Made by a program: the position numbers and the translations under genes
Shown: piece after piece, positions 7,520-29,524 of the stretch
Numbering within the stretch: position 1 is the stretch's first letter
How the letters are laid out: each line of letters opens with the position of its first letter
Notes under the pieces: model-generated
Database searches by the model: none
What the model saw: only the letters and a program-made list of their open reading frames with translations
What the model was told of the DNA's origin: nothing
Assembly: GCA_947561395.2 (NCBI GenBank)
Contig: OX387193.1
Coordinates: forward strand, 16,120,001 to 16,184,000
Direction: 5' to 3'
Source of the DNA: Buxus sempervirens
Taxonomy: Eukaryota; Streptophyta; Magnoliopsida; Buxales; Buxaceae
DNA length: 64,000 nucleotides

Positions 7520-7572
7520 TGTAACGCCTCGATTCCGGGTCCATTTCCTAAAACCCGAGGTGTTATGGTAAG

Positions 7573-9373
7573 TGTAGACACCCCAAATTGCACTACAGAA
7601 TGAGAAAATAGTAAAAACATGTAATTAAAGCTTAAAACAGGTCAAAAATGCATAAACTGACAAGGCATGCTTTGCCCGTATTTTATTCACGGGCCAGTCG
7701 CGCCCGAAATCTCTCTACGGTCAGGCGCGCCCGTAGTGGTAATACGGACACCTTTGGACCGTGAATCATTTACGGGCACATTAGACTCGTGCGAGTTCTG
7801 ATCTTCTCTCGATTTCTGAGCCTTATCATTAGTCCAATATCCCTTTAAATGAGCGAATTAGATGTTTTATTCGTGAGAAATATCTTTGTGGATAAAGGAT
7901 GGGCATGATCTTGTGTTTAACTCAAACTGAAACTCTATCTTGCCAAACCTTGGACCAACCATACCCCTAGGTTTGCCTATAAATAGAGGGCCTTTCCTCA
8001 AGCAAAAGGCCACGAAAATTTGAAGTCCAAGGAACTCCAAGAGAAGAAGAGGAACCCCTGCTGCTTTGCCTGCTCAATCCAGGTAAGTCCCTTTTCCCTT
8101 TTTATTTTCTGTCTTCAATTCTAGAGATAATAGGATCTTCTCTATTGCTATAGAATAAGGCCATCTTGTATCTAGTATTCCTAAACTTGCCTCTAAGTAC
8201 CTCAAGAGTCTCTCTAGCCGTAAAACGTGAAGAGAGAGCTAGGGGAAAAGAGAACAGGTGGATCCCTAGAATAGAACCCCATATCTGTTTTTCTCCTTTT
8301 TTTTTCTAGAATAAAGCCTTGGATTGTGTTTGTGTAACCAAACCTATCTCCAAGTACCTCAAGAATCCTCTCTAGCCGTAAAACGTGAAGAGAGAGCTAG
8401 GGGAAAAGAGAACAGGTGAATCCGTAGGGTAGACCCCCATGTGCTCTAATCTGTGAGATGTGGCTGTTTTAAATATCTTGATCATGTTTTAATGCTTTTT
8501 ATGATGAATCTGAATGAATCACATGAATCTATGATGTTTATAGCATGAGATCCCCACTTTTTGATAAAATTTGGATTTTTGCCACTTTTGCACCTACAGC
8601 ACTGTTTTCGTGATTTTTGTGGTTTTAGGCTAAGATCTTGGATTTATCATGATCAATATGATAGATCTGGATTCAGAAGCTTGAAAGTAAATTCTAGGGT
8701 TTCATGATGTGGTTTTTGAGTCCTTTTTCATTATTGAGAGAAGACCCTATGGTCTAAATTCTCCCCTTTTGATGTTCTTCATCAATGTGGGTATTTTTGG
8801 TTTTTATTTCTTGATTTAATATGAAATTTGGGCTATATCTATGTCCTGGACTATTCAAGTTCAATTTTGAAATATTTTATAAAAATCATATTTTTCTAGA
8901 TTTCTAGAATTTAACTTGAAGCCAGATTTTTGGATTTTTCACTTTAAATTGATTTTATCCCAATTTTATTTTAATCATGAAACCCTAGGAATGGTATGAT
9001 CATATTTGAAAGTTCTGGATCAATCAGACTATTCATATGAAAAAACCATACAATTTTGTTTTTTTTATGATTTTTCATGATTTTTATAGCAAGCTTTTTC
9101 TTTTATTTTTAACATGAACAATACCTGGCAACCACCTTGTGTGGATGAATAGGGGTGCCTAACACCTTCCCCTGTTCATAACCTAATCCCCTTACCCATC
9201 TCTGGTTGTTTTTTTAGGAGGGTTATTTTTACCCTAAAAATTGCCTTTTGTGCTTATTTAATATCTTGGTGTCCATTCACACCTAAATTGAATGGTGGCG
9301 ACTCTTTGTTTTATTTAAACCCGTGTGATGATTGAGGAAGTTAACGGAAATTGATTTTTTCCCATGTCTCACA
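7573..9373 (+). mobile_element. Solo LTR C+ with perfect TSD
   Basis: The LTR starts TGTAGACACCCC and ends CCCATGTCTCACA. It is bracketed by GTAAG at 7568-7572 and again at 9374-9378, so its limits are exact (1801 bp) and no internal region remains. A TATA box (CTATAAATA, 7978-7986) marks the promoter, with four CCG-N11-CGG dyads about 200 bp upstream. The conserved segment at 9130-9200 (GGGGTGCCTAACACCTTCCC) is typical of the R/U5 end of Ty3-gypsy Tat/Ogre-type LTRs. GGTGGCGACTCT (9294-9305) looks like the primer-binding site of such elements but lies 68 bp inside the LTR end. Confidence 0.88.
7676..7775 (+). repeat. CCG-N11-CGG dyad cluster in C+ LTR (4 sites)
   Basis: Four sites have CCG and CGG separated by exactly 11 bases: 7676-7692, 7704-7720, 7731-7747 and 7759-7775. 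Two share the CCGTA..CACGG or TACGG dialect and the others are looser, yet the spacing is constant. Spacing between site starts is 27 or 28 bp. The cluster lies in U3, about 200 bp upstream of the LTR TATA box. Confidence 0.85.
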
Positions 9374-10740
9374 GTAAGTAACAAAAGTAACTAAAAATCT
9401 GAATCCATTTAAGCCTTTATTAATTTCATCATCAAAGTTCTATGCGGAAACAAGAAATAATATCCACTAACAACTCATCTTTAACAATTACAATGTTCTA
9501 AATCTCATGAAACTAATTTTACAACTAAATTGACTGCCCCTTTACATACTAGCCCAATGCTGTCGTCGTCTCCAAGAATACCTGAAAAAAATGGGAGAAA
9601 TCGGAATGAGAATAAATCTCAACAAGTAGCAAGGTGCATACATGAAATAAGTCCATGTTTATATAAAATAAGTCATGAGGTGTACGATTAAACCAACATC
9701 AACAAGAAAAACGATAATATAGAGAAATCACGGCAAACAGCATACCACATCTGTGACATCACAGGACTAATGGAATCGTAAATAGAATTCTACAGACATG
9801 TGCCAATATGCTATCTTACTGAATTACAAGTGGACCAGCCGCCCTACAGTCTAGCTATTCAACACCAACGGAAGAACCCACCAACAACCAATAACCAATA
9901 ACCAAGATGGGTTAGCGTGTACGGCCCAACTTATTCAGGAGTAGGAAATGTAGCGACTGACCTATCCAGGAGCGGTACCACCCTCAAGATGATGGAATGC
10001 CTATGACATAGAATAAGAAACTCCAGAAAACAATTTCATTTACTAGCTACTCTTGACACAACTCACAACCAAAAACTCATAATAACTTAATAATACTATA
10101 AGTTCTAAAATCCTCAATAAACAACTCATCTCAAGATACATAAGAGAGGAAAATTAACCAAAATCATATCTTCCCAAGATACATGGGGCATCCCCGAGGT
10201 ACACGAAGGTCTTCAATACTCCATCCCAATTCATTAATGAAACCATATGCAAATGTCCAGAGATATGACATCAAAGGTAAGAAATGGACCACATCTGGAA
10301 ATAAATAGAAGACACAATCCAAGCATTGAAAACACAATATTATAGTTAAACATGCCCAAATCACTCATTAGTTTTCTAAACATTAATTTAATAAAATGAA
10401 CACGCTTAATTTACCCATGTGAAAGTGTTAGATAATTTTCCAAATCAGTATTTTATGATTTACAAAGATTCATCCCCTAGGTGGAGGGAGTGCTTGTTCA
10501 AGTCCTTCAGCAGGATCCATTTGGATTTTTCTTCTTGAACGTAGGAGGTACGGGCTGCGATACGCAATCTTGGTACAATTTGAACAAAAGGACAAAAATT
10601 AGTATAAAGACTTCATATTTCATCAAAATATAATGCATGTTGATGCATGCAAATGACTTTTTGATTTGATTGATTTCTACTTAATTGATTTTTCTTTGCT
10701 TTGAAACTTTTATTCAACAACCAAGGAGGATGATTTGATC

Positions 10741-11355
10741 TCCTTTTAGCCGCCATTTGGAGACAAGGGGAGAGTCCCTGAGAATAATCTTCTTTTCACC
10801 GCCACTTCGGAGGTTGACCGCCACTTCGGAGGTAAGGAAAGAAGATTTTTGAAAATGATTTCCATCAACCGCCACTTCGGAGGTTGACCGCCACTTCGGA
10901 GGTAAGGAAAGAAGATTTCTGAGAATGATTTCCCTCAACCGCCACTTCGGAGGTTGACCGCCACTTCGGAGGTAAGGAAAGAAGATTTCTGAGAATGGTT
11001 TCCCTCAACCGCCACTTCGGAGGTTGACCGCCACTTCGGAGGTAAGGAAAAGGACTGCTACTTCGGAGGTTAGCCTCCACTTCGGAGGTTAGCCTCCACT
11101 TCGGAGGAAAGATCCTTTTTAACCGCCACTTCGGAGGTAAAGGGAGAGAAGATCCTTGGAAATTATTTCCTTCAACCGCCACTTCGGAGGTTGACCGCCA
11201 CTTCGGAGGTAAGGAAATAATCCTTGGAAACAGTTTCCTTCAACCGCCACTCCGGAGGTTGACCGCCACTTCGGAGGTAAGGAAAGAAGATTTTTGAAAA
11301 TGAGTTCCCTCAACTGCCACTTCGGAGGTTGACCGCCACTTTGGAGGTAAGGAAA
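10741..11355. repeat. Minisatellite of CCGCCACTTCGGAGG units
   Basis: About twenty copies of a 15-bp word, CCGCCACTTCGGAGG, are arranged in pairs. They build a higher-order unit of about 70 bp: two words separated by TTGA, then GTAAGGAAAGAAGATTTCTGA and TTTCCCTCA. Paired words start near 10868, 10938 and 11008, which fixes the 70-bp period. The 3' half is less regular. The minus strand stays open across it (PPKWRSTSEVAVEG repeats), but this follows from the repeat length, and frames change between blocks. It probably belongs to the internal region of the A- element, since Tat/Ogre-type elements often carry tandem repeats. Confidence 0.85.
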
Positions 11356-13260
11356 TAATTTCTGGGTTTAGAAAACACAGGAGCCGATTTTGATTTCGGA
11401 AATGCGGAGCGTTGATTTCCAAAGGATCAGTTTGGAGAATTCCAAGGAATGATAAGGGATTTGGGATGGTAGGAACATAAAGTATTGATTTCCATCAGGA
11501 TCTGGGAAACTACAAGAGTTGATTTCCCAATCCAATTAACTTTCTTTGAGATCTTTTTTATCTATTTATTTATTTTTTATTTCATTTCATTTTTTTTTTC
11601 TTTTTCTTCAGTTTGTCCAATGGCCATTGGCAAAAATCTTGACTTTTTCCTTGACTCTTTTTTTTTTTCACTTCTTTATTTTGGGCTGTTTCCCAGTCAA
11701 TTGAAACTTAGTTTAAGCACAGGGGATTGAAACCATTCTTTGCCCTAAGGCAAATTTAATGTACACTTAGAGTTATTTCAAAATTTTGAATATTTTTTTT
11801 TTTGTTTTTGTTTTTTTTGTTTTTGTTTTTGTTTTGAAATGAGTTAATCAGGTATGCTTATGCAGATGATCTTGAAGTGTGTGCACTTGATGCATGAAGA
11901 TGCATACACAAAATTAAAACCAACATTACCATTCTGCATAATTAAAAAGTGTGTGCATAGTCCTAAAAAGGTTGGTGCCCCTCGAGGCACGACTTCTAGA
12001 CATACTTGTGTATGGAAGCACATCTGAGTCCAGACCAGTCTTCTTTCATTTGTTCTTTCATCTGCCTTTGCTTTCAGGTGTCAGACCAAAAGATTTAACA
12101 ATTTGCCAATCAAGGGCGAAAATTACATGATAATCAAAATCTGCAAAATTTCATCTTAAGGGCTTTTGGGAACCCAGAAGAAGGGTACAAATTTACTTCA
12201 AGGCAGGTAGGCTGAATTCCTAGATCTAGGGTTTTGCCCCTGCTCTGATCTGGCCTGTTTCTGTCTGATTTTCTGATCTGGCCGGCTTTCATCTGCTCAA
12301 AAGGTCGACTTGGACTCAGAGTGCTTCCAATGGACTCGATGGGTCAAGGCCCATGGTTCACGGGACTCAATGTATGGATCTGGGGTGGCTCCCCTGATCA
12401 AAATTTGGTTGGTTTCCTAAATTAGGGCTGAGGCAGCCCAAGATCTAGGGTTCACTCAATTTTATGCAAAAGAGTGGGGGCACTGCCCCTGATGGACTCT
12501 TGGATTTTAAATTGATTTTATTTTCCAATATTCACATCCATATCCATGCTACATTCACAAAGCCGTGGTTTATCAGAAACAATAGGTGGGGAAAGGGTAC
12601 CCAGCCCGAGACATTCGTCTACAAGGGTCTGAGCCAAGTACTAGACCCTCGCGTACCACAGCATGAAGCCAGTGGTGCTAAGGAATCCAGAAACCTGGGG
12701 AGATGGGTTTACCCTGCTTTCCCCGGCAAGCCACGGGAGCGTAGAGCTAATACCATCCCAAAAGTAAGTTCATCGTTTGAGAAGGGTGGCTGCTAAAGAG
12801 ATCTAGGTTTTGGTGAAGAAGAGCAGCATTTCATCAAATCATTCAAAGCGGATCATTCATGCAGACCCCCTCGTGCATGTCACCCCATACAGTTAAAAGA
12901 TCATTCACGGTGTAGTGAGGTGCTTGTGTGTGCAGTGGGGCAAGGTGCTGTGTCTATTTGGGTGATTCTCGGATAATGAGCTGATAAAGGGTTCCTTAAT
13001 GTCACTTTTATAGTGAGAGTACAGAACAACATGTAATACGATGTCTGGGTGGATTCCCAGGTAAGTGGGCGGGTCACATTGGTCCCTGTTAAAAACCACT
13101 TACCTTAGGCGATTATCATGTCCGTTTGACAGGATCCCCCAATATCACGTAATTGCAAGAGTTCCATACCTCACTAAGGTTGGACACAAAGTACTTCCTA
13201 AATTTGCTCATATCCCCCTATGTTGACTCATTTCCTAAACAAGGTCCAATTGGGCTGAGA
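11356..13260 (-). mobile_element. Non-coding internal region of element A-
   Basis: This is the sequence immediately 3' of the primer-binding site when read on the minus strand. I find no gag, protease, RT or integrase motif in any frame. It includes T-rich and GTTTTT-repeat stretches (11560-11840) and a short plus-strand open frame at 12464-12796 that resembles nothing I know. A long non-coding leader fits a non-autonomous or heavily truncated Tat/Ogre-like element. The other LTR of this element is not seen. Confidence 0.5.
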
Positions 13261-13280
13261 GGTCCCCAGTGGAGTCGCCA
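13261..13280 (-). other. Primer-binding site of element A-
   Basis: The minus strand reads TGGCGACTCCACTGGGGACC, three bases after the LTR end (..GTGCGCACA). This is the PBS type I associate with Ogre/Tat Ty3-gypsy elements, primed by tRNA-Arg. It is the only LTR in the nest still joined to its PBS, and it confirms where the LTR of this family ends. Confidence 0.8.
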
Positions 13281-14055
13281 AGCTGTGCGCACCCCCTTTT
13301 TCCGGTTTCGAGGTTTCGGGCCGCACGACGAGGTGCATGTAGAAGTGATGCTCGCCTCGGGACTGATTTTGGAATTTGGAGTCGCCACTGCCTGAGAGGT
13401 GCAAGCAGACACAAAGGGGCACCTATCCGGGCCTAATTAATCTGGTCTGCGGCTTATTAGAGTTCTGAGCAAGTTCTCGGTTACGTCTAGGGAAGCCCGA
13501 AGACACCCTAGCCCGCCCCGTCGATTGACAGGTCCCGTGGGTCTCCTTGGTCTGAGTCAACTTAGTTTTCACCCAATTCCTAAGCCATTATGCACACTTA
13601 TTTGGTCTGGTGGGACCCTCTGAAGGTGTGGGTCCCTTTTATTTTATCTTTTTTATTTATCTAAGTGAGGTGGGTCGGACCCGGGTCCCGTTGGAAGGCC
13701 CGCGGGTTGCCATGGTTGGGCCTTGGGCCCAGTTGGGTTATTGGGTAACCCATTTGGTTGTTTTATTATTTTATTTATTTACACTTTAGGTTTGGGCTTA
13801 GTGGGCTCGGAATGGGCCCATTAGCCAAAGTCAAGTGGCCTTGGGCCCGTTTATTGAAAACGGGCCCGGTTTGGGCCGGTCAAAAGTGGGCCCCACAAGT
13901 GGGCCCAAGGGGTCTTGATGGGCCTATCTAGGCCCAAAGTCCAAAATGGGCTTAAGATAGCCCAAGTGGTTTAAGGGAATGGTTCAAGCCGGTTTAGGCC
14001 GGATTAGGTCCAACCGAACCAAGAAATTACACTTTTTACATTATTTCACAAGTGC

Positions 14056-14154
14056 CCGTATTTTCTTTACGGTCCGGCTTGCCCGTGAATGGATTACGGT
14101 CTTCCTCGCCCGTGAAGAAAACACGGTCCAGGCTGGACCGGCCTGAGTTTACGG
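14056..14154 (-). repeat. CCG-N11-CGG dyads in A- LTR, downstream zone (4 sites)
   Basis: Sites lie at 14056-14072, 14083-14099, 14110-14126 and 14138-14154, again with exactly 11 bases between CCG and CGG and with 27 or 28 bp between site starts. Three have the CCGT.. dialect and the last is CCGGC. In LTR orientation they lie downstream of the TATA box, so they would be transcribed. Confidence 0.85.
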
Positions 14155-14925
14155 GCGCAATTCAGTTTGCCCGTTTGCTGCCGATTTCAATCTGGATCTG
14201 TTCCGTGGCCTTCTTGGGATCTTCAATGACTTCTGTGGCGATTCCAGGGCCTTTAGGATTCTTCATTTCCTTCTTTTGGCTTGAAAAGGACATTCTTCTT
14301 CTTTGATTTTTCTTGAAGAAACCGGATCATTTCTTGTTTGTTTACCTCCATATTTAAAAATAGGACCTATGGTATTTACAGGGAATTGAACATCCTTAAA
14401 GAAGTCATATCCCAATCATGGAATAAGAAGGATCATTAGTTGATTCTTAGTGTCCAAAGGACACTTTCTTTTCTTTTCTTTTTTTTTATGATCAACTCCT
14501 TTTAGCTTGCCATGACTTAAGAGGGAACAACAAAAGGGTTAGTAGAAACTGTAGAATGTACAATACTTTGAAAAGAAATTAAAACTTATCACATTGTATT
14601 TAAATGGGTGAGAAAAAATACTTACAATGCTGTTTATGACTAGTTCTAATGGTTCCTCTGGATTTGAGCAAATTCGGCAGCGCTTCCGCGTCCTTCGGAA
14701 TTTTCTGGATTGATTTTGGCAGAGGTTTGGTGGGTTCTTGATGTTCAAAGGATAAAAAAGAAGATTTTAGGCATGGTTTTGATGAGACAGGGGCAATTTG
14801 GGAACAGAAGGGGTTTAGTTTAGGAGTGGTGGTAGTTGGGCAGAGTTTGGACGTGGAAACATCAAGGAAGGAGAGGGGGGACGGCCAAGGAGAAGGCTTG
14901 CTCAAATGAGGGGGGTGGCCTCTCT

Positions 14926-14932
14926 ATTTATA
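14926..14932 (-). promoter_or_regulatory. TATA box of the A- LTR
   Basis: The minus strand reads TTTTGCCTATAAATAGAG. The B+ and B- LTRs have the same TTTGCCTATAAAAG context at 24880-24893 and 29264-29278, so this is the shared LTR core promoter. Confidence 0.7.
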
Positions 14933-14948
14933 GGCAAAATTTTCGTGC

Positions 14949-15149
14949 CCGTATTTGAACTACGGGCATGCCTTGCCCGTACTTCAAGTACGGGCGTGCC
15001 TTGCCCGTAATTCAATTACGGGCGAAAAACGAATATTTGCAATTATCGCAGATTCTTCCGTACGGGACGCGTGTCCCGCCACGCGTCTTCTTCTAGAAGC
15101 TTGCCCGTAGTTTAAGTACGGGCATGCCTCGCCCGTACTTCAAATACGG
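14949..15149 (-). repeat. CCG-N11-CGG dyads in A- LTR, upstream of TATA (5 sites)
   Basis: Core sites are 14949-14965, 14977-14993, 15005-15021, 15105-15121 and 15133-15149. The second and third are perfect palindromes with 10-bp arms around one central C. All are in the CCGTA dialect. Site starts are 28 bp apart within each sub-cluster. In LTR orientation the nearest site is about 17 bp upstream of the TATA box. Confidence 0.9.
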
Positions 15150-16845
15150 TCCCGCACGTTTTTAAAATGTTTGGATTTCAAACCTTTATTCAATTTGGTT
15201 TATTTAAAGATTTTTATCCGATTTTTTGATTATTTTATTATAAAACGAGATTCTCTTATTAAAATAATATTAAAAGATTATTTTTGCTTATTTAATTCAT
15301 CTATTCTGCTTTTTTACTGCTGTTTTGCCACATGGGCAGCTTTCTTTGAAACTTCAACTGCCCATAACTTCTCCGTCTGATGTCTGATTTTAGCAAATTT
15401 GGTGTCCTTGGAATCAGCTCGGAACATATTATCCACTGGGATCAAATTGGGCAGTTGAATTGGGGTCGAGCAAAAAGTCAACTTTCGCTCCCCCAAAAGT
15501 TTGACCGGTTCATAACTTTCTCATTCGGACCCCGATTCTGGCAAACTCAGTTGCGTTAGAACCGTGTTGAAATGCTCTTTTCAATGAAAGGAAGTTTGAT
15601 GGCCAATTCTCTTTGGATTAAAAATTCAATTTTTGGCCCCCCAGGGTTTGACTTTTAATTGAAATTTTCATTTTCTTCATTTTCTGGGGTGCAAAAATCA
15701 GGTGTCTACATAGGTGTCACAACTTTAGAATTTACAGAAAAATCATTAAAAATTAAATCTGGGCACAAATCCCAAAATATGAAATTTCTGACATTGGTGT
15801 CTCAAATAGGCGTCCGAGCGACTGTTCTGGCGGCTAGATTTTTAGGTTCTATTTTAGATACACAGGCAGGTTGCCCGTATCTGTGCTTAAACGGTATTTC
15901 GGGCAACAACTTTCTGGGTTCCGCCAGTTCTTCTATTTTCTGGGTTTTGCTGAATTTTGTGAACTTTCTTCTTCTATTATTATTTTAATTTGGATCTAAA
16001 CATATGTATTTCATCCTAAATTAGATCTGAGACACCCCTAAACTAATTTCATCATCTTTCTATTTAGGGAAATTTACACGTACACCCCCTGAGGTTTGGG
16101 AAAGTGTCACGGACACCCCCTGTGGTTCAAAACGGATCACTTACTACCCCCGTAGTTTCAGAAAGCATCACCTACTACCCCTACCGTTACATTGCACACA
16201 AACACCATTAGTCCTTTTCTTCAAATGGCCGAAATGCCCCTGGCTCCTCTTCATTATCTTCTCCATGTTAACCATGTTAAAGAATACTCTCCGACCTCAC
16301 TGCTCTACCCAATGACATTATAGGACCAAGCTGAGCTTTTAACAAGCTCAGTTGAGCCTCGGCAACCATGGATGCATTGTTTATGGATTGGTCTATAAAA
16401 AACTTCTCAACCTCATCGTCACTGTCATGCATCGTGTCTGAGTTGAGCCCGGGCAAAACTTTAATTCTCAACAAAACTGGGAAAACCAAGTTTAACAACA
16501 AGGCACTGGAGCTGCTAGCAGAGTTCTAAACAAGCAAGATTTCTACCAAAAACACGAAAAGAAACTGAAAAGATGGGGCCTGAAAGTGTTTTCAAAAACC
16601 ATTTTTGTAGAACAAGTGACCTGTCATTACCAAAGAGAAAAGAATAAGCTACCTAGCTTGTTTTGTTGGCAACTTTGGCATTTCTTTCAAATTTAAAACC
16701 CGAAAGCATCCCCTCCTAATAGGAACTTGCAAGGTCATACACTCATAGCTAACAATGCATTCATATTGAGAAAGAAATCAAAGAAAAATCCAAGCAACCA
16801 TCCCATTAACCCTGCAAGTAGAAATCACGCACATCATAGAGACAG

Positions 16846-16966
16846 ATGCAAACTTCACTACCATCCTTACCCACCACCATTACAAAAGAAAATAGATATC
16901 TCTATTGCCTGTTAGCCACCTCTCTGGTCTCCTTATTTTTCATTCTTTCTTCCTCCTCTACCCGCA

Positions 16967-17000
<34 letters not shown>

Positions 17001-17443
17001 TTCTTCGTCTGTAACATACCCGTTTGGCTTCCGAAACGCTCACCAACATCTCCTCCTTGTAAACCCAAATCTAAACAATCCCTCCAATAACCCCCTCCCT
17101 CCAACCCCACCTTCTCTTGCCTACTACATCTCAAGCTCCAATGGAGACGCAGATCGAATCCTTCGCCTCCTCTTCTCCATCTACCACCACAGAAATCAAT
17201 ACCTTCTCCACCTCAACAACACCACGCTTCAATCTCAACGTGACCAACTTGCTCTCTCCGTGCAATCCGTCCCTCTTTCGAGCTGCCCAGAACGTCAATG
17301 TTATTGGCAAGGCCGATTTCGCAACCCCAGAGGCTCATCTTCCATTTCATCCACTCTTCATGGTGCATCGATTCTCCTCAGACTCTCTGCCAATTGGGAT
17401 TGGTTCATTAATCTCTCTGCTGTAGATTACCCACTTGTTACAC
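16846..17443 (+). pseudogene. GT14 (GlcAT14-type) glycosyltransferase fragment
   Basis: From 16846 the frame encodes an N-terminal membrane anchor (YLYCLLATSLVSLFFILSS), a poly-Ser linker from a TCT repeat (16965-17010), then PSLAYYISSSNGDADRILRL, LHLNNTTLQSQRDQLALSVQ and WDWFINLSAVDYPLVTQD. These are landmarks of plant GT14 core-2/I-branching-like proteins such as the AGP glucuronosyltransferases. It has two compensating frameshifts near 17270 and 17325: between them the correct residues (FRAAQNVNVIGKADFA) are in the next frame. It stops after DG at a GT that could be the normal first splice donor. Only exon 1 is present, so it is a captured, non-functional fragment. Confidence 0.8.
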
Positions 17444-17519
17444 AAGACGGTATGCGAAAATCCTGTCGCTATTGTGGGAGATTATTTGGATCTGACGAAA
17501 GTTCTTTGCTTTAGATTTG

Positions 17520-17738
17520 ATTTTCTGATCTGGCGATCGGATGTCCCTTGGAAATGGCTTCATTCTCGTCCAGGAACAACCCATCTGGATTCCTGAAAAC
17601 CCTGTGAAGGGCAGAGATTGTGAGCCCAATCCCAAGGCCGACGATCATTCTCCCAACAGCTCCCATGAACCAAATAGCGAGGATGCAAGCAACAAAACCA
17701 GAGATTAGGGCTTCGTAAAGGGGGGATGCGAGCAACAA
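17520..17738 (-). pseudogene. PRA1-family C-terminal fragment
   Basis: The minus-strand frame has a hydrophobic stretch (FVACILAIWFMGAVGRMIVG) followed by LGIGLTISALHRVFRNPDGLF and LDENEA. The ending (ALH..FR.P..LFLDE) is typical of plant prenylated Rab acceptor (PRA1) proteins after their last membrane segments. The N-terminal half is missing, and the sequence is flanked by short tandem duplications. It is next to a glycosyltransferase fragment on the other strand, which suggests transposon capture rather than a resident gene. Confidence 0.55.
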
Positions 17739-19091
17739 AACCAGAGATTAGGGCTTCCTAAAGGGGATGCGAGCAGAGAGATCGGAGGGATGCGAGCAAA
17801 GAGGTCGGAGAGTATTCATGATCAACACATTTCTTGGTTCTTAAGGAAAGTTTTAAATCACCAAATCAAATCTTTATAAATCATCAAACTTTTCCAATGA
17901 AATCCAACTCGAATAATACCACGAATAAACATCTAAATCTCAAGAAAACATGTATTATCTCCAGTTTCAAGGGTTTGCTACTTGCCTCAATACATGAACT
18001 AAATCTGAAATCTGTCAAGAAATCTGCTCGCCTAGCCATTGTCTGAGCTTGATTGCACCACCTTAAACTCCTCCAACTCAAATCTCCACCGTTCAGATTG
18101 AAGTCCTTCATGAGTAGATAATAACCTCAAAATTTCAGGCCAAACCAACGGTTGGATCTCCGAAGGTCGTCATTCGAAGTTGGCTGGTTGGCCATCTCTG
18201 CAACTCTTCTTTCTTTATAGAATCTCCTCCTTTTCTCTTCTCTCTTCTTTCCCTTATTTTTCTCCAAGCCCAAGCACGAATTTCCCTCTTCTTTCTCTTT
18301 ATTTTTGACTTGTTAAAAACCCTAAACCTTCCCTAGACCTTCCCTTTTATAAGCTCACTTAGTAGAAGTCCTAATAGGTTTAGGAGACCTTCTAAATAGG
18401 ATTCCCAATCTTAATAGGAAACCTTCCTATCTTATCCCTCATTCTAATTCCTCTTCTAAGAATCTCATACAAAAGAAGGACTTAATTTAATTTATTTTAG
18501 TACTAATTTGATTTCTTATTTTAAAATATTACTAAAACATCCCAAAGCTCCTCTTATCCCTAAATTTAAGGCTCCTTATCAACCATAATCACCAATGTAC
18601 CCTTTTTCCCACTTTTAAGCCATAATTTGGTGTTCAAATTCAAACATAACCCAATTTAAGTCTAGTTAAATATTTCAAGTCTAATAATTATTTACTTACT
18701 CAATATATTAATTTGGCTAATTGGAAAATGACTAAAATACCCTTTCGTTGTAATTCCATATTTAACCTTTGGATCTTTTTCCAAAAATTCTCCACTTTAT
18801 TCCTCACATCAATCTTAACCATATAATGTACTTGGATTAATACCTATCTTCTCCAATCCTTTATATTTAATTTACTCTCCCAATTTTTCTAAATCATCCT
18901 CTCTTTTTTTCTAATTAATTTGGAGTTACTATTTAATTTCTTAATTACTCAAAATTATTGTTTATTCATTTAACTACTATTATCTTTTGGATTATATTGT
19001 TATTCCTCCAATACCTAAACTAAATCTTAACTTCTTTATATATTTAGGTTTATTTAATTTATTTTATTTTTGGAAAATCCAGGGTTTTACA

Positions 19092-19471
19092 GTATCACCC
19101 TAAACACAAATCCCATTATCTGGTAGGATATAAAGAGGCATAAATTTGTTAACTTGGCCATGCAGTTTGGAATAGAACAGGAACCTTCTGAAATCCTGTT
19201 TAGGACATGAAGATGAGATGCTTTGAAATCTTACTGCAGCAATGGTCGGTGGTGCCAATGGCTCCTCCACAACCTGGTGAAGAACACCTGTTAATTTATC
19301 CCAGAGTGATGCCTTCCCACTGTCAAATTTCGTGGTAGGTGCTTGTTTTGCAACAATCATCAACATGTAAAAGTATATCACATAATATTCATTGATCTGG
19401 AACATCAAAAAATGGCATTTCTCTATTGGTCTATGCTCTCCATTTCTGCCATACCTCTCAACATCGATCAT
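19092..19471 (-). pseudogene. Host-locus fragment right of D3-, unrecognised
   Basis: An open minus-strand frame of 123 codons includes ASLWDKLTGVLHQVVEEPLA, PPTIAAVRFQSISSSCPKQD and FRRFLFYSKLHGQVNKF. A CAG at the GGTGTTCTTCACC junction could be a splice acceptor. The frame ends in a stop four codons before the D3- target duplication, and sequence continuity resumes at 7519. I do not recognise the family. It lies 3' of the ketol-acid reductoisomerase pseudogene on the same strand, but the residues do not match that enzyme. Confidence 0.4.
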
Positions 19472-19852
19472 CTGTAAATATTATGAACACATAAATAGGC
19501 ATTTGTAAAAGTTGAAGAAATGCATCACTATCCTTGTCCTATCAATTAACCTAGTTGGATACCACTTTTGTTGGAATGAAACATGGAGGATTGATTATCT
19601 AAAAGTTGAGAGAAAAAATATGCTAACTATAGAAATACTAACAAACAATAGTGCTAACATTGTGAAACCATAACAGAAAAAACAAAGATAAAGTATAACT
19701 GACAGCAGCAAAAGTGGTGCATGTCCAACTAGTTTCCACTAAAAGCCAACTTCTCACCAAAAAAGTTTAACAATCCTCATAAAGACAAATTCCCTAATAG
19801 CTCAATATCTCGATCTAATTGCTAGACTGGCGCAACTTTGGGGGTGAACAAA
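19472..19852. other. No gene seen
   Basis: AT-rich sequence lies between the unrecognised fragment and the end of the reductoisomerase pseudogene. Reading past the pseudogene's terminal stop (19850-19852), the minus strand still gives FVHP.. similar to the normal C-terminal tail for about ten codons. Confidence 0.4.
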
Positions 19853-19855
19853 TCA

Positions 19856-20191
<336 letters not shown>

Positions 20192-20338
20192 TTATAATTT
20201 AAACATAATTTCGGTTTGATAAGATGAATTTCCTAATTATAATTACGAAGAAAATAAGATGAGAACTCTCACCTAAGCCATCATAAGTGCGACATAAACA
20301 CCAGCAGTAAAAGGGTACAAAGGACCCAAATCACCTTA

Positions 20339-20446
<108 letters not shown>

Positions 20447-20704
20447 CTACATATATGGTTATTATTTAATATTAGTATACTCCAGACAATATTGTAAACT
20501 AAATTGGGAAATTGTTTCAACAGATGAGAATATATATATATACACCAAAGTTATGGTTAGCAACGACAATTCTATGAATCTCCTCCCCATAAGCGACTTC
20601 TTCATAGCACTCATAAAGGATGTTCAAAAGAGGATAATATGAAGCACTATATGCCATCTGGAATTGTTTCCTCCCATTCTTTGATAAGGCATTATATAGA
20701 CCTA

Positions 20705-21031
<327 letters not shown>

Positions 21032-21077
21032 TCAAGTCAATGAAGTGCAAATACAATATTAATGATGAGACTAGCTA

Positions 21078-21218
<141 letters not shown>

Positions 21219-21283
21219 TTAATTATTGTTAAACAAGTACAGACTTTTTCTGTCTCAGATGAATGTTGTATAGGAAAATATTA

Positions 21284-21613
<330 letters not shown>

Positions 21614-21728
21614 TTAAAACATGTACAAAAAATGAATAGGTATGCTTGAAGAATCCATCGATCAATTAAGCAATAACATAGGTTTTAAAGCATAAAATGA
21701 ATAGATATGTGTTTTAGTCAATTGATTG

Positions 21729-21937
21729 ATGGTATTTTCAATTAAGCCTATTCATCCATCATTTGGATGAAAAGCATTAGTCAATTGAAAATACCATCCA
21801 TCATTTGTGTTTTAGTCAATCGTGAGGAATGACCACAACGCGATTGACTAAAACACAAATGATGGAAAAGAAAAAAAAATTATGTATCTTATGTTGGTTT
21901 TTTTATCATCACGATTGACTAAAACACAAATTATGGT
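21729..21937. repeat. Foldback repeats in a KARI-pseudogene intron
   Basis: Two perfect 25-bp inverted arms, 21798-21822 and 21841-21865 (CGATTGACTAAAACACAAAT with flanks), face each other across 18 bases. A near-copy of the right arm recurs at 21912-21937. A second inverted pair (GATGGTATTTTCAATT near 21729, complement near 21782) overlaps on the left. It is probably a decayed foldback MITE in the intron between exons 4 and 5. Confidence 0.65.
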
Positions 21938-22110
21938 AAAGAAAAAAAAAGTCATAGGTCTTATTCAGCCATTGAATAAGCATTTAATGGTTCTTAGGTT
22001 GGTTAAAGCACATACTGTAGAGAATAAGCATTTAATGGCTAAAGTTTTCAAGTTGGTTAGAGCATGAAAGAATTACATTAAAGCAGAATAATCATCTTAA
22101 ATCCTTATCA

Positions 22111-22242
<132 letters not shown>

Positions 22243-22456
22243 TCAGGCTTCGGCCATTGAAGGGGATCGCTTTCTCAGTCCAACCTGTAGTATGAAGTAA
22301 CAATGGAGAACCTTAATTTCATATAAATCGACTAACTAATTATATGGGAAATATGCTGAAAGGAACAACTTACAATGGTAGATATTTAACCTTGACCACA
22401 ATATCAGACTTTGCTTCTGCAAGAGAATCCCTCAGATTCTGAGCTTGAGCTGGACC

Positions 22457-23855
22457 CTAAATGGATAAAAATGGGGTTAGCATTTGAAATAGGTTGATGA
22501 AAGATACTCTTCTTTAGGGAATATTCACGAACAAACAAAACAAACAGACAAAATGCCCCCAAGAGTGGCTTCCAATGCCTATTTAAAAGCAATACCAAAC
22601 ATGTCCTAAGAGTTATTATCCTGAATATCCTTTAATTGGTATTGTGGCAATGATGGATCAAGAAAACCATGAAGATCATGTTTGTCTATGCTAGGAACAG
22701 TATTGCTAAATGATGAGCAAGAAGTGCTTCTATCAATTAATTGGTTAGAAACCAAGGTTCAAGCCGGCAACATACTACACTCATAAAAATATTACTTTGT
22801 TACTAACTACTATTGGATTCCATTTTCTATGTGATTTGATCATCAGGTATATGTTATTTTCTTAACTAACTTTCATAGGAAATGGTTGATATGCTCTAAT
22901 AGATATTTGTTATGATTTGAAGCATAAAATTTCCCCAAATACCGTAATATCGTTGATCACAAAGTTGCATTGCCAACATTAACTCACATAATTGGGTTGC
23001 TCTTATGAGTTTTCAACTCAAAATAATTTTCTACTCTTTTCATTTTTCTTGCTTCCACTATGTTCTTTTTCTTTGTTCGTATTTTTGCTCACATTTGCTC
23101 TGCAACCTCTCAAATATCATTTTTTGTTCTTCTTTTCTCTCCTCAAAGTTTTCCTTTCTCTTCTCAAGCAAGTTTTAGTTGACCAAAATCAGCAAAACAT
23201 TTTCTTCTCCATTGCTCTCATTTTGCCTTGCTATTTTTTGTTTGTCACGCCCCACAAGCTCATGAATCGTTTCATTTTACACAAAAGAAATATACTATAT
23301 ACTCGAAACAAAATATACAAAGATTATAAGAATCAAGATACCATTAGAAAATAAACTTTTAATTGCAAAAGATACAAAATAATCAGGGAAAAAAATGTTA
23401 ACTAAAGCAAAGCACTTCAAAACAACACTATTCATCAAATGGGAAAAAACCAAAACCAATTTGGAAACTACAAGCACATATATGAATTCAACTATAAATG
23501 TAGGACAAATCAAAAAACCATATTCCCTGGAACAAGATTACTTTGAAGATTCCTGCTTCACTCCATTTGATATAATATATTTAGGAATCGAGTATGAAAG
23601 CAATAGTTTAGTTTGCAACACTTCCTAATTCCGAAGATGTATCACTGAGAGATGCTTTCTTTAATTTTTGAAAATTCGAGATTGCAATAAAAAATTTGTG
23701 CAAATTTAATTGGTACAGAGATCAGTACAAAGTTAATTTTTGAAAATTCTATAATAAAAAAAACATTGGGAAACTCAAAAATATTATCAAAAACCTCTTT
23801 CCTATTGAAACTTCATATTAATCATAGATAGATGCTCATCATTCACCTTGGCTGC
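22457..23855. other. KARI-pseudogene intron, left of the nested LTRs
   Basis: No coding similarity was found. A T-rich stretch at 23020-23230 and an A-rich stretch at 23280-23640 stay open in several frames without recognisable motifs. GCTGC (23851-23855) is the left target duplication of B+. Confidence 0.45.
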
Positions 23856-24633
23856 TGTAAGCACCCAAATTTTGATTAAACCAAAAAATGTGCAAAACAA
23901 AAAACAAAAAACAAAAAAGCAAAACAATTTAAAAACCCTGAGGAAAAAAAATTGGCTTTTTGATCGAATGCAAGTTGGCTACCTTGCCCTATCCCAATGG
24001 ATATGAATTTCCAACACGATTCGAACGCAACTGAGTTTGCCTGAATCAGAGTCCAGATGAAGGATTTATGGACAGAACAAATCTCAGGGAGCAGAAATTG
24101 ACTTTCTGCTCAAACCCCGTTTAACTGCTCTCTTGGTCCTGAAAGAAAGAAAATCCCGACACGATTCCGACGCAATTGAATTTGCCAGAATCGGGGTCCG
24201 GACCAAGGAGATATAAGCATATTAAGATTCCGGACGCTATTTCGGCTTTCTGCTAAAAACTTGAATTTACTGCAAAACCCTGTCCCAATGGATAGAGGAT
24301 CTCAACCCGATTCCAACACAACTGAGTTTGCCAGAATCGAAGCTTGGATGAGAGAGTTATGAGCAGTTCAGGTTCTAGGGCAGAAGTGCCAGAAGCTGCC
24401 CATGTGGCATGTGTGCAGAAACCTGCTACGTGGTGGAAAAAGGACTGAAAGGACAGCCAATGAAAATATCAAGAATATAATAATGTTTTTTCTCAAAATA
24501 TCTTGATTTTATGAATTAAAATAAATGAAATATCAAGATAATTCGGATTCTCTCCAGGAGAGAGAGTCCAGTCACATCGGTCAAATCCAAGGGCAAATCC
24601 GGAAGAAAATCTTTTTTTTTTTATATAAAATAA

Positions 24634-24873
24634 CTGAAATTAATTTTCGGTTATACACAAAATGTGTATAACCGAAATTGAATTTCGGTTCATAAAGTAA
24701 AGGCCAATATTTTCTGACAGATTTCCCGACAAAATCTCTACATTTTCTTGATTGCATGTCGGAAATGGGTGTAACCGAAATTGTATTTCGGTTACACATA
24801 TTTATAGTATAACCGAAATTATATTTCGGTTATACTATATTTTTAGTGTAACCGAAATATAATTTCGGTTACA
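24634..24873 (+). repeat. CCG-N11-CGG dyads in B+ LTR, upstream of TATA (5 sites)
   Basis: Dyad sites are centred near 24642, 24680, 24783, 24821 and 24860, all in the CCGAA dialect. The last three are perfect palindromes with 12, 14 and 16-bp arms and short centres (24769-24797, 24806-24836, 24843-24877). The first has CTG in place of CCG. Spacing within each half-site pair is always 11 bases. The last palindrome ends about 7 bp before the TATA box. Confidence 0.92.
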
Positions 24874-24884
24874 CTAATTTTGCC

Positions 24885-24892
24885 TATAAAAG
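24885..24892 (+). promoter_or_regulatory. TATA box of the B+ LTR
   Basis: The context TTTTGCCTATAAAAGCTGC follows the palindrome cluster directly. The same context occurs in the A- and B- LTRs. Confidence 0.7.
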
Positions 24893-26098
24893 CTGCTCAG
24901 CAGCTCATTTGCAGGGGGTTAGCCATTCTATCCTTTGGAGCTCTCCCCTCTCTCCTCTCCCTGCTTGAAACCCCTTTCCCTACCACCCTATTATCCCTTT
25001 AACCCTTCAAGTCACCCCTAAACCCTCCTAAACCCCTCTCCTTTCTCCTTCTCCTCCACTTTTGAGCCTCAGAGAAGCCTTGAGGAGGCTTTGTGGAGCA
25101 AGAAGGAGGTGTCCTAACTGCTGGTGGAGCTTCCAAGGAGCTCCACACACTTCAAGAGGGACTCTAAACCCAAAGGTAAGGTTTCCCCTTGGATTTTACT
25201 TAATATATATGAAAATGAGCTCATTTGGAGCACTTTTGGTTTTGACATGTCTTTCCCTCCCTTCTATATGCATGCGTTTTGTTGTCTCCTCCTCTTCTCT
25301 CTTTAATGCCTCTACAAGCATGGTTATGCTCCTATGGTAAGAGGGAGCAACCGCACTCAAAAACGGGAGGCGGGATCACCCATGGTCTCTAAAGAGTCAT
25401 TTTAAGTATGCTTTTTTCCTTCATGTTCTTCCAGTTACTGTTTTGATTAAATGGGGGAGCACGTTCCCTCTTTCTCACTTGATCTTATGTACCCCTCTCT
25501 TAATCCCCCAAGTCCTTTCTTTTAATGATTTGTTTTTTAGGACGTAAGCATGCTTGTTTTCTTCATTAATCATTTTGAAGCATGCTTGAGTGAATGGATG
25601 AAACCCAATATGCATGAATGGCATGTTCCCCACCTCTTCGGCCATGCTATGTCTCCCATCGAGTCACTGTTTTATGATTTGCATGCTTTCATCTCATCTT
25701 TGTATACATCAAAAGCATGCACGTATATGTACACGTAGGAAGCATGCTAAGTTCCTTTCCTTTAATCATCTATCTTTGCATGCACATGAGCATGTCCCCA
25801 GAACCCCCTTGCCATTGCCTTGTTACCTACTAGTTTGAGATATCATGCATGCCCCCGTTCCCCCTTCCTTTTACTGTTTTTAACCCTTTGGCATGATCCC
25901 CTTCCCCTTGGTTCCTAAAAGTCCCAAAAAAAAGGGCCTAAAGAGGCCTCTCCCCTTACCCATGAGCCACTGTGGGCCCACACAGCTGCCAGGCAACCCT
26001 GGAAACCTAAGAAACCAAAGCCCCTGAAAAAAAGCGAGAAAACTATTTTTCTATGCTTGCTCGAAAACTCAATTCGAGCAAGCTTCTTTTCCCTTGTA

Positions 26099-26125
26099 AC
26101 CGAAATTGGATTTTGGTTACACCCT
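26099..26125 (+). repeat. Single degraded dyad in B+ LTR, downstream zone
   Basis: GTAACCGAAATTGG then ATTTTGGTTAC has CCG, 11 bases, then TGG, which is one C-to-T step from CGG. It keeps the CCGAA dialect of this copy and lies downstream of the TATA box, like the second zone in A- and B-. Confidence 0.7.
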
Positions 26126-27399
26126 AAAAATGCCAAAGAACCTATTTTCAACCCCTTGCTTATCTCTCAGCATGTTTCAATTTAACCATACCATCCAGTA
26201 GGGTTTCCGAGTCAACCGAAAACCCAATAAGGGCCATGGACTCACCGGGTCCAATTCGATTGATTGTGGGCCTTCCAACGGGGCCCACCCAGTCTAACTC
26301 ACAGGCCTTGTTCCAAAATCAATAATTAAGCTGCTTAAATGGGCCACACCATCTGTGCGCGCGTCGGAAACACCGCACGGGAAAGTTCGGAGTCGCCACC
26401 GCCTGATGGGGTGCAGGCGGACACCTGGGTGCCTAATCTTGTCTATTAAGGCTTTGGGTCTGCGGCTTGAGATTCTAAGTCAGTTCTCGATTGCGGTCTG
26501 GGGAAGTCCGTAGACACCCCAGTCCGCCCCGTCGGATGACAGGTCCCGTGGGTTCCCTGGTTTGAGTCAGCTTACTCTGGTTTCTCACCCGATTCCTAGT
26601 CCGATAGGCAATTTGGTTAAGTCTGGCGGGACCACTTGAGTGGTGTAGGTCCCTTTAATTGATTTTATCTTGCTTAATTTAGGTGATCTGAGTCAGATTG
26701 GGTGGGCCCCGTTGAAAGGCCCATGGTGTCCTTGGCGGGCTTGGCTAAGCCCACATGCCTCTGGTGGGCCTCTATTTAGTCCTAGGAGGCCCTTTGGGCT
26801 TAGGTGTAGTGAATGGATTTTACTTAATTTATTCAAGTTGGAGGCTTAGTGATTTTCATGCAATGGGTTTGCATTGGTTTGCGGGCCCCCGGGTGGGCCC
26901 CTATGATGGTTGCCAAAGGTGTTTTGTATTTATTTTATTTGGCTTTGCCAAGAATGGACGGGTTACTGGGCTTGGGGCCCGTGATCCTGGTTTGGGCTTG
27001 TAAGCCCAGTTCTTTGAAGTCTAGGGCTTGCACCCTAACTGGGTTCGGTTAGCTGGCTTTGGCGGGCCCGATAGGCCCTAGCCCTTGGTCTCGGCCAAAC
27101 CATGCAATTCATATACTCATTACACAAAGACAAGTTCGGGTGGACTGCATTGGGTTTGGCCCATCCGGTTTGATTAGTTAATTCCACTTAATCTTGCTTG
27201 GTTGCATGCTTTTGGGTTTATAGGACTTGGTGGGCCCCGTTGGAAGGCCCATTAGTGTGCCATATTGGACCGGTGTCCAGGTCCCATGTTGGGTTTCCGG
27301 GTGACCTGGAAACCCTGTTGGTTCACTTGGTTTGGTTCAAACCATCACAAAATTCGGCAAGGAACCCCAAAAGCATAAAACCTGTATTTCTGTGTGTAT

Positions 27400-27455
27400 C
27401 CGGCCTTAGTTGCCGGATACACACAGGCCATAGGTGATCCGGCCTGAGTTGCCGG
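27400..27455 (-). repeat. CCG-N11-CGG dyads in B- LTR, downstream zone (2 sites)
   Basis: 27400-27416 and 27439-27455 each read CCGGCCT.AGTTGCCGG and are flanked by complementary bases (GTAT/ATAC and TGAT/ATCA). They use the CCGGC dialect and exact 11-base spacing. Confidence 0.88.
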
Positions 27456-29287
27456 ATCACCCTAAAATGGCATTTTTCGGGGTTTGGCCATTGGGGTGGC
27501 TTCCATGGGTTCCTAGAAGACTTTCTAAGGTTTGGTGGGCCCCTGGGAGGGCCCACACTGGTTCAGGTTTGAGGAAGAAGCCTCATTTGGCCTCCTTTGG
27601 GACTTTTCCAGCAAAGGTAAGTAGATGGGCAATGGTGCATGGAGGTGCTGCCCCCCTTCCACTTTGGATCATGTTCCTTGATATAGTAGGGACCGAGGTG
27701 CCCCTACTTGGTCTCTAGGATCCTACCGGTAGCAAGCATGACTCTTGATGGAGATCAGAAAACAAAGGAGCTGGAAGCATACTCTAGATTATGAAGTCCA
27801 TTAGCATGCTCTCATCCACCATACAGGGGCAGCAAGAGTTAAGCCCCCAATAAAAAAATAGGATGAATGGCTAGGTTGGGAATTACCTATCAGGCCATTA
27901 GGGCGGTGGGAAAGTCCACGGATGCACTCAATGGTCATGGTGGCAAGCATGTTACATCCAAGGGCCACGGAATTGCATTCTGTTGTGGCTCAGGACAGCA
28001 ACCAAAGGGAAGCATTCGAACATGCCATTGAGGCTGAACATGGTCTCGGGTTTCTAAATTTTCTGGGGCAGCACCAGCGGGGAGCTTCACACAAGCTTGA
28101 GGGGTTGAGGTCACCACCAAAAGGGGGAAGGGCTTGATGGGGGGTCTAGGCTACACTAAAGAGTGCAAAAATACAGGTGAGAAGAGGGGGGGAGGGGCTG
28201 CTGCTGTCACCAACAGCAACCCACGTGGGTCACACAAAGGGGGGCCTAGGGGGGAAGGGGAACAAGTTAATACCAAAAGAACAGTAAATGACAAACAGCA
28301 ACAGACCCACCAAAGGATCATTAACGATGGCAATTCATGCATTACATTGGTGGGTGCTTTAGTTGTGCCCAAAGAGATAAGCATGCATGTGAGGTGTGGT
28401 TCCTAGGGACTGATTTTTATGGTTGAAAACAGTGGCTTGCATGCAAGGGAACCTAATCCAACATGCAAGAATAACAAGGAACAAATGTCCATAAGATCCT
28501 AGCATACATGACCCTACCGCGAGAGGACCTTGTACAAAGCAAGACAATAACCAAATGCACGTAAAAGCAACAAGAGCATGATCTAACGCATCACCTATGA
28601 CCTCAAGCCAGGTCTGATCCACAGCCTCATGCTCAGACAATAAAAAAACATCCAACGAAGGGGAAGAGAAGGGGGCTCATAGGGGGTACATTGGATAACC
28701 AAGTACGAGGAGACATGCCTCCTCTCGAAACAACCAGAAAAAAGCCTAAAACAGTTGCTGTAGTGGTCGAAGAGGGGCTGAAAAATCTCATCTCTTCCTC
28801 TTTAAGGCCATCTACATACCTCTCCCTTACTTGGAGGTCCTCATATGGTGAGATGAGAACAAGTGCATGCTTAAAATACTATGGAGATGAGCTCATGCAA
28901 GAGAAGAATACATGCTTGGAAATCATTTTATAAAATTACTATTTTAACATATGTGCAATAAGACATGGTGAGGAACATTACCTGACAGCTCTTGACCTCT
29001 TGTATAGTGTGGAGACACCTCTGGGTGGCTGACCAGTAGCTGGAAGCTCCCCTCCTTGACAGCAGCAGCAATAGTTCCACCTCTCGGTGGGATGCAAGTG
29101 AGGAAGAAGAAGTAAAGGAAGGGTGGTAGGGGCTTGGGGTAGTGTGGATAGGTGGTGGAGGGTAAGGGAGGTTGTGGAAGACTGGATTCGGGTGGAAAAG
29201 GTGGGGGAAGGAAGTTAGGAAACAACCAAAAAAGCCAACCCCCGGAAATGGGCTGCTGCTTGCCTTTTATAGGCAAACTTAATGTAT

Positions 29288-29524
29288 CCGGCAACTCAGG
29301 CCGGATACACTAAGCCCTCTTCATAGCCGGCATATATGGCCGGTTACACAGGTGCTCCTTTGTATCCGGCATTCAATGCCGGATACAAAACATAGTCATC
29401 CAAAATTAAATGCCGCCGCAAATTTGTCGGGCGATCGGCGCGAATCTCGCCGATTGATCTCCTTGTATCCGGCATTTGATGTCGGTTATACACGAACCTA
29501 TGTGTATCCGATATATTTGACCTG
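29288..29524 (-). repeat. CCG-N11-CGG dyads in B- LTR, upstream of TATA (5 sites)
   Basis: Sites lie at 29288-29304, 29327-29343, 29366-29382, 29469-29485 and 29508-29524. The third is a perfect palindrome with 15-bp arms around one C. The last has CTG for CGG. All keep 11 bases between half-sites and the CCGGC or CCGAT dialect. Site starts are 39 bp apart within sub-clusters. In LTR orientation the nearest core is about 17 bp upstream of the TATA box. Confidence 0.92.

Follow-up and report, generated by a model that had tools for sequence, protein, structure and literature searches.

Why should four long terminal repeats (LTRs) at one plant locus carry, again and again, the trinucleotide CCG followed after exactly 11 bases by CGG? 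The question is raised by a stretch of 64,000 nucleotides of the Buxus sempervirens genome (contig OX387193.1, positions 16,120,001 to 16,184,000; hereafter the window), in which such dyads lie in the LTRs named here C, A, B+ and B-. As judged from sequence, they are probably binding arrays of a dimeric DNA-binding factor, constituting a promoter array, either activating or anti-silencing, of Ogre/Tat-type Ty3/gypsy retrotransposons. Their appearance is that of a docking array, rapidly changing, for some regulatory protein.

Spacing and arrangement of the dyads

The LTRs were delimited by their end sequences and by target-site duplications (TSDs) before the dyads were counted. TG...CA ends typical of LTRs are accompanied by a TSD present twice at C (GTAAG) and at B- (CCATC) and matching at 4/5 positions at B+, and LTR A is adjoined by a putative primer-binding site (PBS) (Table 1). 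Exact CCG-Nk-CGG was tallied for k of 0 to 40, both between positions 7676 and 29524 and in the four delimited LTRs. The interval gave 24 sites at k=11 and 0-7 at the remaining spacings except k=6, whose 14 sites are attributed to the tandem array of ACCGCCACTTCGGAGGT at 10798-11355, an internal repeat. The LTRs gave 26 exact sites at k=11 (C 4, A 10, B- 7, B+ 5), the runners-up being k=37 and k=39 with 6 each. In 500 dinucleotide shuffles of the same LTRs the mean at k=11 was 0.95 and the maximum at any k in any shuffle was 7, and the 52,666 bp of the window outside them hold 1 exact site. The k=11 peak stands above every spacing of every shuffle, as was expected by the first-pass annotation, which had claimed the fixed spacing in four LTRs and proposed a count of this kind against shuffled sequence. 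Its tallies, one-base variants included, were reproduced for C (4), B+ (6, made up of 4 clustered exact sites and 2 variants) and B- (7, made up of 6 clustered exact sites and 1 variant), whereas the 9 sites given for A become 10, the tenth probably being the isolated dyad at 13847. Two exact matches, at 29721 and 30744, fall outside the clusters and may be due to chance. The extension of many sites to perfect palindromes, also claimed, applies to a part of them: 8 clustered exact sites pair at no more than 9/18 positions, the others at up to 17 consecutive positions.

The TATA box GCCTATAAA has exactly four matches in the window, one in each of LTRs C, A, B+ and B-. A, B- and B+ share a layout in which two dyads are followed, after a step of 100-103 bp, by three more, the last of which starts exactly 30 bp before GCCTATAAA; the pattern of TATA, N13 and two dyads matched these three LTRs and nothing in 100 shuffles. 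Steps between neighbouring dyads are 27-28 bp in A and C and 38-39 bp in B, a gap of about one helical turn. At matched slots CCG/CGG agree at 29/30 positions in each pair of LTRs, a figure biased upward because the slots were chosen for CCG..CGG, and the inner bases agree at 22/55, 16/55 and 29/55. The spacers agree at 98/174 positions between B- and B+ (46% for shuffled B-/B+) and at 72/176 and 60/173 between A and B, the latter values being low partly because unequal lengths force gaps. The half-site letters are GMCCGT in A and mostly also in C, AACCGAA in B+ and ATCCGGC in B-. Each half-site of A conforms on its own, since 19/20 fit GMCCGT individually.

In the 676.5-Mb assembly, where counts were made per strand, TTTGCCTATAAA occurs at 5,936 + 5,946 places (backward control, 35 + 37), and CCGN11CGG-N10-TTTGCCTA, a dyad at the 30-bp TATA distance, occurs at 904 + 888 = 1,792 (control, 0 + 1). 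The k=11 dyad as such was found at 163,369 places per strand across 676 Mb versus 126,325 for the backward pattern, a control without CpG. Among the first 100 of the 1,792 sites, the two bases inside CCG match between the halves in 95, the classes being TA/TA 86, CA/CA 4, GC/GC 3, AA/AA 1, AC/AC 1 and mixed 5.

A k=11 peak in other genomic copies, on which the first-pass annotation had made its reading depend, was looked for in a part of the assembly. The first 200 kb of one contig (C1:1-200000), a stretch chosen after its dyad matches were known, gave 26 sites at k=11 and 3-18 at the other 40 spacings (mean 9.7). The peak recurred in the extracted genomic stretch L032 (12 versus at most 3 for other k) and in nine stretches upstream of PMD genes (31 versus at most 14). 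All three GCCTATAAA boxes of C1:1-200000 have dyads within 420 bp upstream. An A-like LTR at C1:48460 has the layout of two dyads, three dyads and 30 bp once two variants with one changed base are included (slots 564, 592 / 703, 731, 759 / TATA 789), and a C-like LTR in the same 200 kb shows four dyads of the ATCCGG type at steps of 39, the last 174 bp from TATA. There are therefore at least two layouts, a second LTR group having four dyads 174-216 bp upstream of TATA in place of the 30-bp layout, and either LTR backbone can host a given half-site class; ATCCGGC was found on two, that of B- and that of the C-like LTR at C1:141892. A scan of IMG/VR with TATA and two dyads gave no match, nor did a comparison of LTR A with phage records.

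Lineage of the elements and dyads ahead of PMD genes

The copies in the window are without pol, and the lineage assignment rests on a 16-kb genomic copy with dyad LTRs (C1:12307964/12324382). This LTR pair encloses three frames, which read in the sense direction are PMD (498 aa), gag (665 aa; 1.8e-14) and pol. The first of these (L031:6499-7992, minus strand) matched DUF7745 (2e-24) and PMD (1.6e-21), both over the cut-off. The 1,002-aa pol frame (L042:1094-4099, minus strand) possesses RVT_1 (23-183), RT_RNaseH (272-376), RVT_3 (431-549) and rve (716-813) domains, the order being RT-RH-aRH-INT in the one copy scanned. Ogre and Retand are recognised by an aRH lying between RH and INT, and a PMD frame is reported in 57% of Ogre elements (PMC6317226). 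By its domain order the 16-kb copy is an Ogre/Tat-type Ty3/gypsy element, resembling Ogre, of the Tat clade, in the position of aRH, the extra PMD frame and the length of the element; it differs in that the available text of the Ogre report mentions no palindromic LTR motifs ('palindrom', 0 occurrences; PMC6317226).

A 12-kb LTR pair (C1:8110160/8122221) has behind its 5' LTR the same 20-letter PBS as LTR A, TGGCGACTCCACTGGGGACC, and a gag frame (PF03732, 8.1e-12); no pol was found in the 10 pieces scanned. The PBS may be complementary to tRNA-Arg. Within the window, tblastn revealed no PMD, and a Pfam scan of 49 of the 179 open reading frame pieces (at least 70 aa) gave no LTR-retrotransposon gag or pol over the cut-off. 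The sole PF00078 match of that scan lies at 755-1027 on the minus strand, and a zf-CCHC_4 match at 33526-34047 was below the cut-off.

Of 5,751 DUF7745 candidates in the genome, 118 gave a scored match, many of them free of stops. Two diverged element-borne PMD/DUF7745 classes were recognised, one of 498 aa (for example, the L031 frame above) and one of 559 aa (for example, C1:14559809, plus strand), which show 27% identity over the stretch compared. In 10/10 stop-free frames of the 559-aa class, the domain match is preceded, at a distance of about 320-425 bp, by 3-4 exact dyads in fixed slots, with half-sites of the class AACCG(T/C)...CGGTT. L032 contains a C-like LTR on the opposite strand, 1.6 kb from the PMD gene, in which six dyads of the AACCG(T/C) class lie in the matching place. 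The LTR and the 559-aa PMD gene thus share a half-site class, and it is likely that the two belong to one element. The 498-aa PMD, the first gene behind its LTR, has no array of its own (1 dyad in L031, 0 in the internal part of L013). A diverged old copy at C1:41-46 kb specifies a PMD of the 498-aa type with 87-89% identity over two main matches; the LTR pair C1:48460/41290 around a PMD frame showed no matching TSD (GGAAG, ACCGC). Among the matches listed, 0/5 DUF7745 genes of C1 below 34.46 Mb lie inside listed LTR pairs, as judged by eye, which speaks neither way.

What may read the dyads

In a binding array of this kind a symmetric protein dimer would read two NCCGNN half-sites, CCG and CGG 11 bp apart, and several dimers would align ahead of the TATA box, driving transcription or protecting it. 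The specificity of the factor would differ among families, the half-sites of one LTR changing jointly (CCGTA, CCGAA, CCGGC, CCGCA and CCGAC classes). It is protein binding, the dimeric state, the effect on transcription and the family-specific specificity that we infer here. Such a factor would serve LTR and PMD promoters alike, because one class of elements has dyads ahead of its own PMD gene as well. The first-pass annotation had proposed binding sites for a dimeric host or element factor, and this proposal is the best supported, by the common array, the 30 bp to TATA in three LTRs, the 1,792 genomic dyads and the PMD-gene arrays; a role for hairpins is retained beside it, as the outer arms of B- covary.

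That covariation (47/70 versus 37.2 with the halves permuted, P=0.009; in B+ P=0.052) would not be required of a simple dimer site and is one of several observations that weigh against a promoter array. The 30-bp distance is not universal, being 216 bp in C from the start of the last dyad; in C1:1-200000 an exact dyad stands at 30 bp before 0/3 GCCTATAAA boxes, the nearest being at 58, 174, and 62 or 128. Further dyads occur 0.8-1.9 kb downstream of the TATA box (four in A, two in B- and one variant in B+), the second cluster of A, at 14056-14154, being a possible antisense or second promoter. CGG-N11-CCG also recurs in the A and C arrays (10 sites in the LTRs), so that the half-site pair forming the unit is ambiguous there. 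Besides the upward bias of the 29/30 agreement, the dyads are not independent, since they are tandem repeats and LTRs A, B+ and B- are homologous to each other (71-74% identity at the ends). The ten PMD arrays represent one lineage, because their upstream kilobases are 84-98% identical, and the independent events are accordingly few.

The main rival, though unlikely, is that transcribed LTR RNA forms stem-loops which serve the element or feed host small-RNA silencing, a role put forward for the LTR palindromes of maize Sireviruses. Folding of the RNA is more stable than that of shuffled sequence (z -13.7 for B+, -7.7 for B-, -10.5 for A, -3.0 for C and -2.1 for the A second cluster), the outer arms of B- and, more weakly, B+ pair above permuted halves as given above, and small-RNA enrichment is reported for the maize clusters (PMC10760457, PMC5311732). 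Pairing in A, however, is not clearly above that of the family consensus (outer 42/100 versus 41.0, inner 31/50 versus 28.1, P=0.17), nor is outer pairing in C (14/40 versus 15.3); core-adjoining pairs fail 5/10 in A, with zero of those G-U, and the third inner pair forms in 16 of the first 100 of the 1,792 genomic sites. Hairpins predict neither a fixed TATA distance nor an array before a protein gene. Passive tandem duplication of a palindromic unit from an ancestral LTR, with the fixed spacing reflecting shared descent only, would account for the homology of A, B+ and B- and for the tandem repetition, in units of 28 and 38-39 bp, that is seen in A and B+. It appears improbable: CCG/CGG are kept at 29/30 while inner bases drop to 16/55-29/55, the spacers agree at 98/174 in B-/B+ (46% when shuffled) and at 72/176 and 60/173 in A/B, where forced gaps lower the values in part, and ATCCGGC sits on the different backbones of B- and C1:141892. 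That the elements are Sireviruses and the dyads the Sirevirus repeated motif (RM) can practically be dismissed. Location and CCG/CGG palindromes are similar, but RT-RH-aRH-INT in the copy with dyad LTRs is Ty3/gypsy and not Copia, and the RM spacings CGG-N4, N5 and N6-CCG have 1, 2 and 2 LTR sites versus 26 for CCG-N11-CGG. Fungal Zn2Cys6 and plant VOZ/NAC sites were weighed and set aside.

If the dyads are protein-binding arrays, the PMD protein of the element is the leading candidate for the factor. A self-recognition circuit may be suggested tentatively, in which a PMD dimer would bind the dyads of its own LTR, and in the 559-aa class also those of its own gene, activating or un-silencing the element; protein and dyads would co-evolve, the half-site letters changing per family with the 11-bp frame fixed. 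This would, if true, be a VANC-like system in Ogre-type LTR retrotransposons and provide a function for Ogre PMD frames. A serious contender, though short of probable, is that the factor comes from the host and not from the element; a host PMD resembling MAIN or MAIL1, or an activator of the host, would be an example. In Arabidopsis, both the silencing of transposable elements (TEs) and the expression of genes whose promoters contain a motif require MAIN and MAIL1 (PMC7156037), but half-site letters vary by family within one genome, which family-specific element proteins explain more easily. The host-factor reading overlaps with the promoter-array reading, and the two are not exclusive alternatives.

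The first-pass annotation knew of no described family with this signature. This agrees with the literature surveyed for the exact CCG-N11-CGG frame; the general kind has been described, as Sirevirus CGG-CCG boxes upstream of TATA (PMC2829016). The upper LTR of Sireviruses (Ty1/copia) contains palindromic RM boxes, clustered ahead of a conserved TATA (Bousios et al. 2010, PMC2829016), and among described systems their CGG-CCG RM is the nearest, differing in orientation, spacing and element type. Both have clusters of CCG/CGG palindromes upstream of TATA (here at 30 bp in A, B- and B+ and at 216 bp in C, with downstream clusters in addition), extra copies upstream of an element gene (ENV there, the PMD gene here), flanks that vary by family, and an unproven function, and the RM arm of Citrus, AATCCGG, is similar to the B- half-site (PMC2829016). 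The RM core is CGG-N4..6-CCG in 12/13 by our own reading of Table 3 of PMC2829016, and in the reverse reading some of them give CCG-N6 or N7-CGG, in contrast to N11 here; the maize Copia palindrome CACCGGACNNNGTCCGGTG is CCG-N9-CGG. Sireviruses are Copia elements, whereas the copy scanned here has a gypsy-type pol.

VANC targets in Arabidopsis VANDAL elements are bound by an element-encoded protein, and the motifs of related families differ by a few bases changed together (PMC5735166); a short motif amplified in tandem repeats and changed together within a family was likewise found here. The VANC motifs (YAGTATTAY; AGTTGTCC/AC) are not described as palindromic in the available text ('palindrom', 0 occurrences; PMC5735166), and VANDALs are DNA transposons with their own binding protein, whereas the present LTR elements encode a PMD protein that is a candidate only. 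MAIN and MAIL1 belong to a TE-derived PMD family tied to TE silencing and a promoter motif; they are host proteins, and the consulted text of PMC7156037 mentions no binding of theirs to dyads. CpG-rich stretches before TATA in monocot LTR elements and tandem repeats in the U3 of Tnt1 offer a further likeness, with no CCG-N11-CGG frame in the consulted text of these reports (PMC4029996, PMC3601003, PMC10760457).

The questions touched concern the presence of PMD genes in Ogre-type elements, the target of host PMD proteins, and how long LTRs stay active in the face of silencing. A fixed-frame dyad in thousands of promoters and before the PMD gene of one class supplies a 17-bp probe per family and a named candidate protein, and the arrays allow clean discrimination between a protein site and an RNA hairpin.

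Coordinates and other features of the window

Table 1. LTRs, dyads and associated sites in the window.
Feature	Position	Strand	Remarks
LTR D, fifth LTR	4412-7353	-	TGTAGACACC...CTCACA; flanks CAGGG/TAGGG
LTR C, solo	7573..9373	+	TGTAGACACC...CTCACA; 5-bp TSD GTAAG both sides (7568-7572, 9374-9378)
LTR C dyad cluster	7676..7775: 7676-7692, 7704-7720, 7731-7747, 7759-7775		Steps 28, 27, 28
TATA box GCCTATAAA of LTR C	7975..7983	+	Sequence match
Putative PBS TGGCGACTCCACTGGGGACC	13261..13280	-	Directly inside LTR A
LTR A	13284..15710	-	TGTAGACACC...GTGCGCACA; taken as 5' LTR of minus-strand element
LTR A isolated dyad	13847-13863
LTR A second dyad cluster	14056..14154: 14138, 14110, 14083, 14056
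TATA box GCCTATAAA of LTR A	14927..14935	-	Sequence match
LTR A promoter-proximal dyads	14949..15149: 15133, 15105, then 15005, 14977, 14949		17 bp each; steps 28, 100, 28, 28
LTR B+	23856..30961	+	TGTAAGCACC...GCGCGCACA; interrupted by B-; flanks GCTGC / GCTAC, imperfect TSD (4/5)
LTR B+ promoter-proximal dyads	24634..24868: 24634 (CTG variant), 24672, then 24775, 24813, 24852		Steps 38, 103, 38, 39
TATA box GCCTATAAA of LTR B+	24882..24890	+	Sequence match
LTR B+ downstream dyad	26100..26116		One base changed (TGG)
LTR B-, solo, nested in B+	26354..30100	-	Perfect 5-bp TSD CCATC (26349-26353, 30101-30105)
LTR B- downstream dyad pair	27400..27455: 27439-27455, 27400-27416		Step 39
TATA box GCCTATAAA of LTR B-	29266..29274	-	Sequence match
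LTR B- promoter-proximal dyads	29288..29524: 29508 (variant), 29469, then 29366, 29327, 29288		Steps 39, 103, 39, 39

LTR D, which was excluded from the dyad counts, is related to C (70-75% in parts), is without GCCTATAAA and has one CCG-N11-CGG (6788). Self-BLAST of the window revealed no second copy of LTR C, and a repeat search of the window at 200 bp found nothing. B- and its host LTR B+ belong to one LTR group. In its plus-strand reading the second cluster of LTR A aligned with the C cluster with a score of 65 (same strand 57; A proximal cluster 69), and a TATTTAAAAATAG box lies about 200 bp beyond it. The ACCGCCACTTCGGAGGT array, about 2 kb inside the A element, is quasi-palindromic, with CCG-N6-CGG in units of about 68-70 bp, and is a separate CCG/CGG motif distinct from the k=11 dyads.

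Sites resembling splice donors follow the TATA box at 8080 (C, +105), 25173 (B+, +291), 28984 (B-, +290) and 14626 (A, +309); from those at +290 to +309 in three LTRs, a leader intron inside the LTR is possible. Elsewhere in the window there are a degenerate Helitron-type helicase at 37965-40728 (PIF1, 9.7e-49, at 39634-39987; Pif1_2B at 40486-40728; a weak Helitron_like_N at 37965-38654) and an open frame of hAT transposase type, of 696 codons, at 42030-44117 (Dimer_Tnp_hAT, 2.1e-29; zf-BED). A MORN-repeat gene occupies 55349-56485, its closest homologs among the best 120 of 1096 matches being Tetracentron, Macadamia and Protea proteins.

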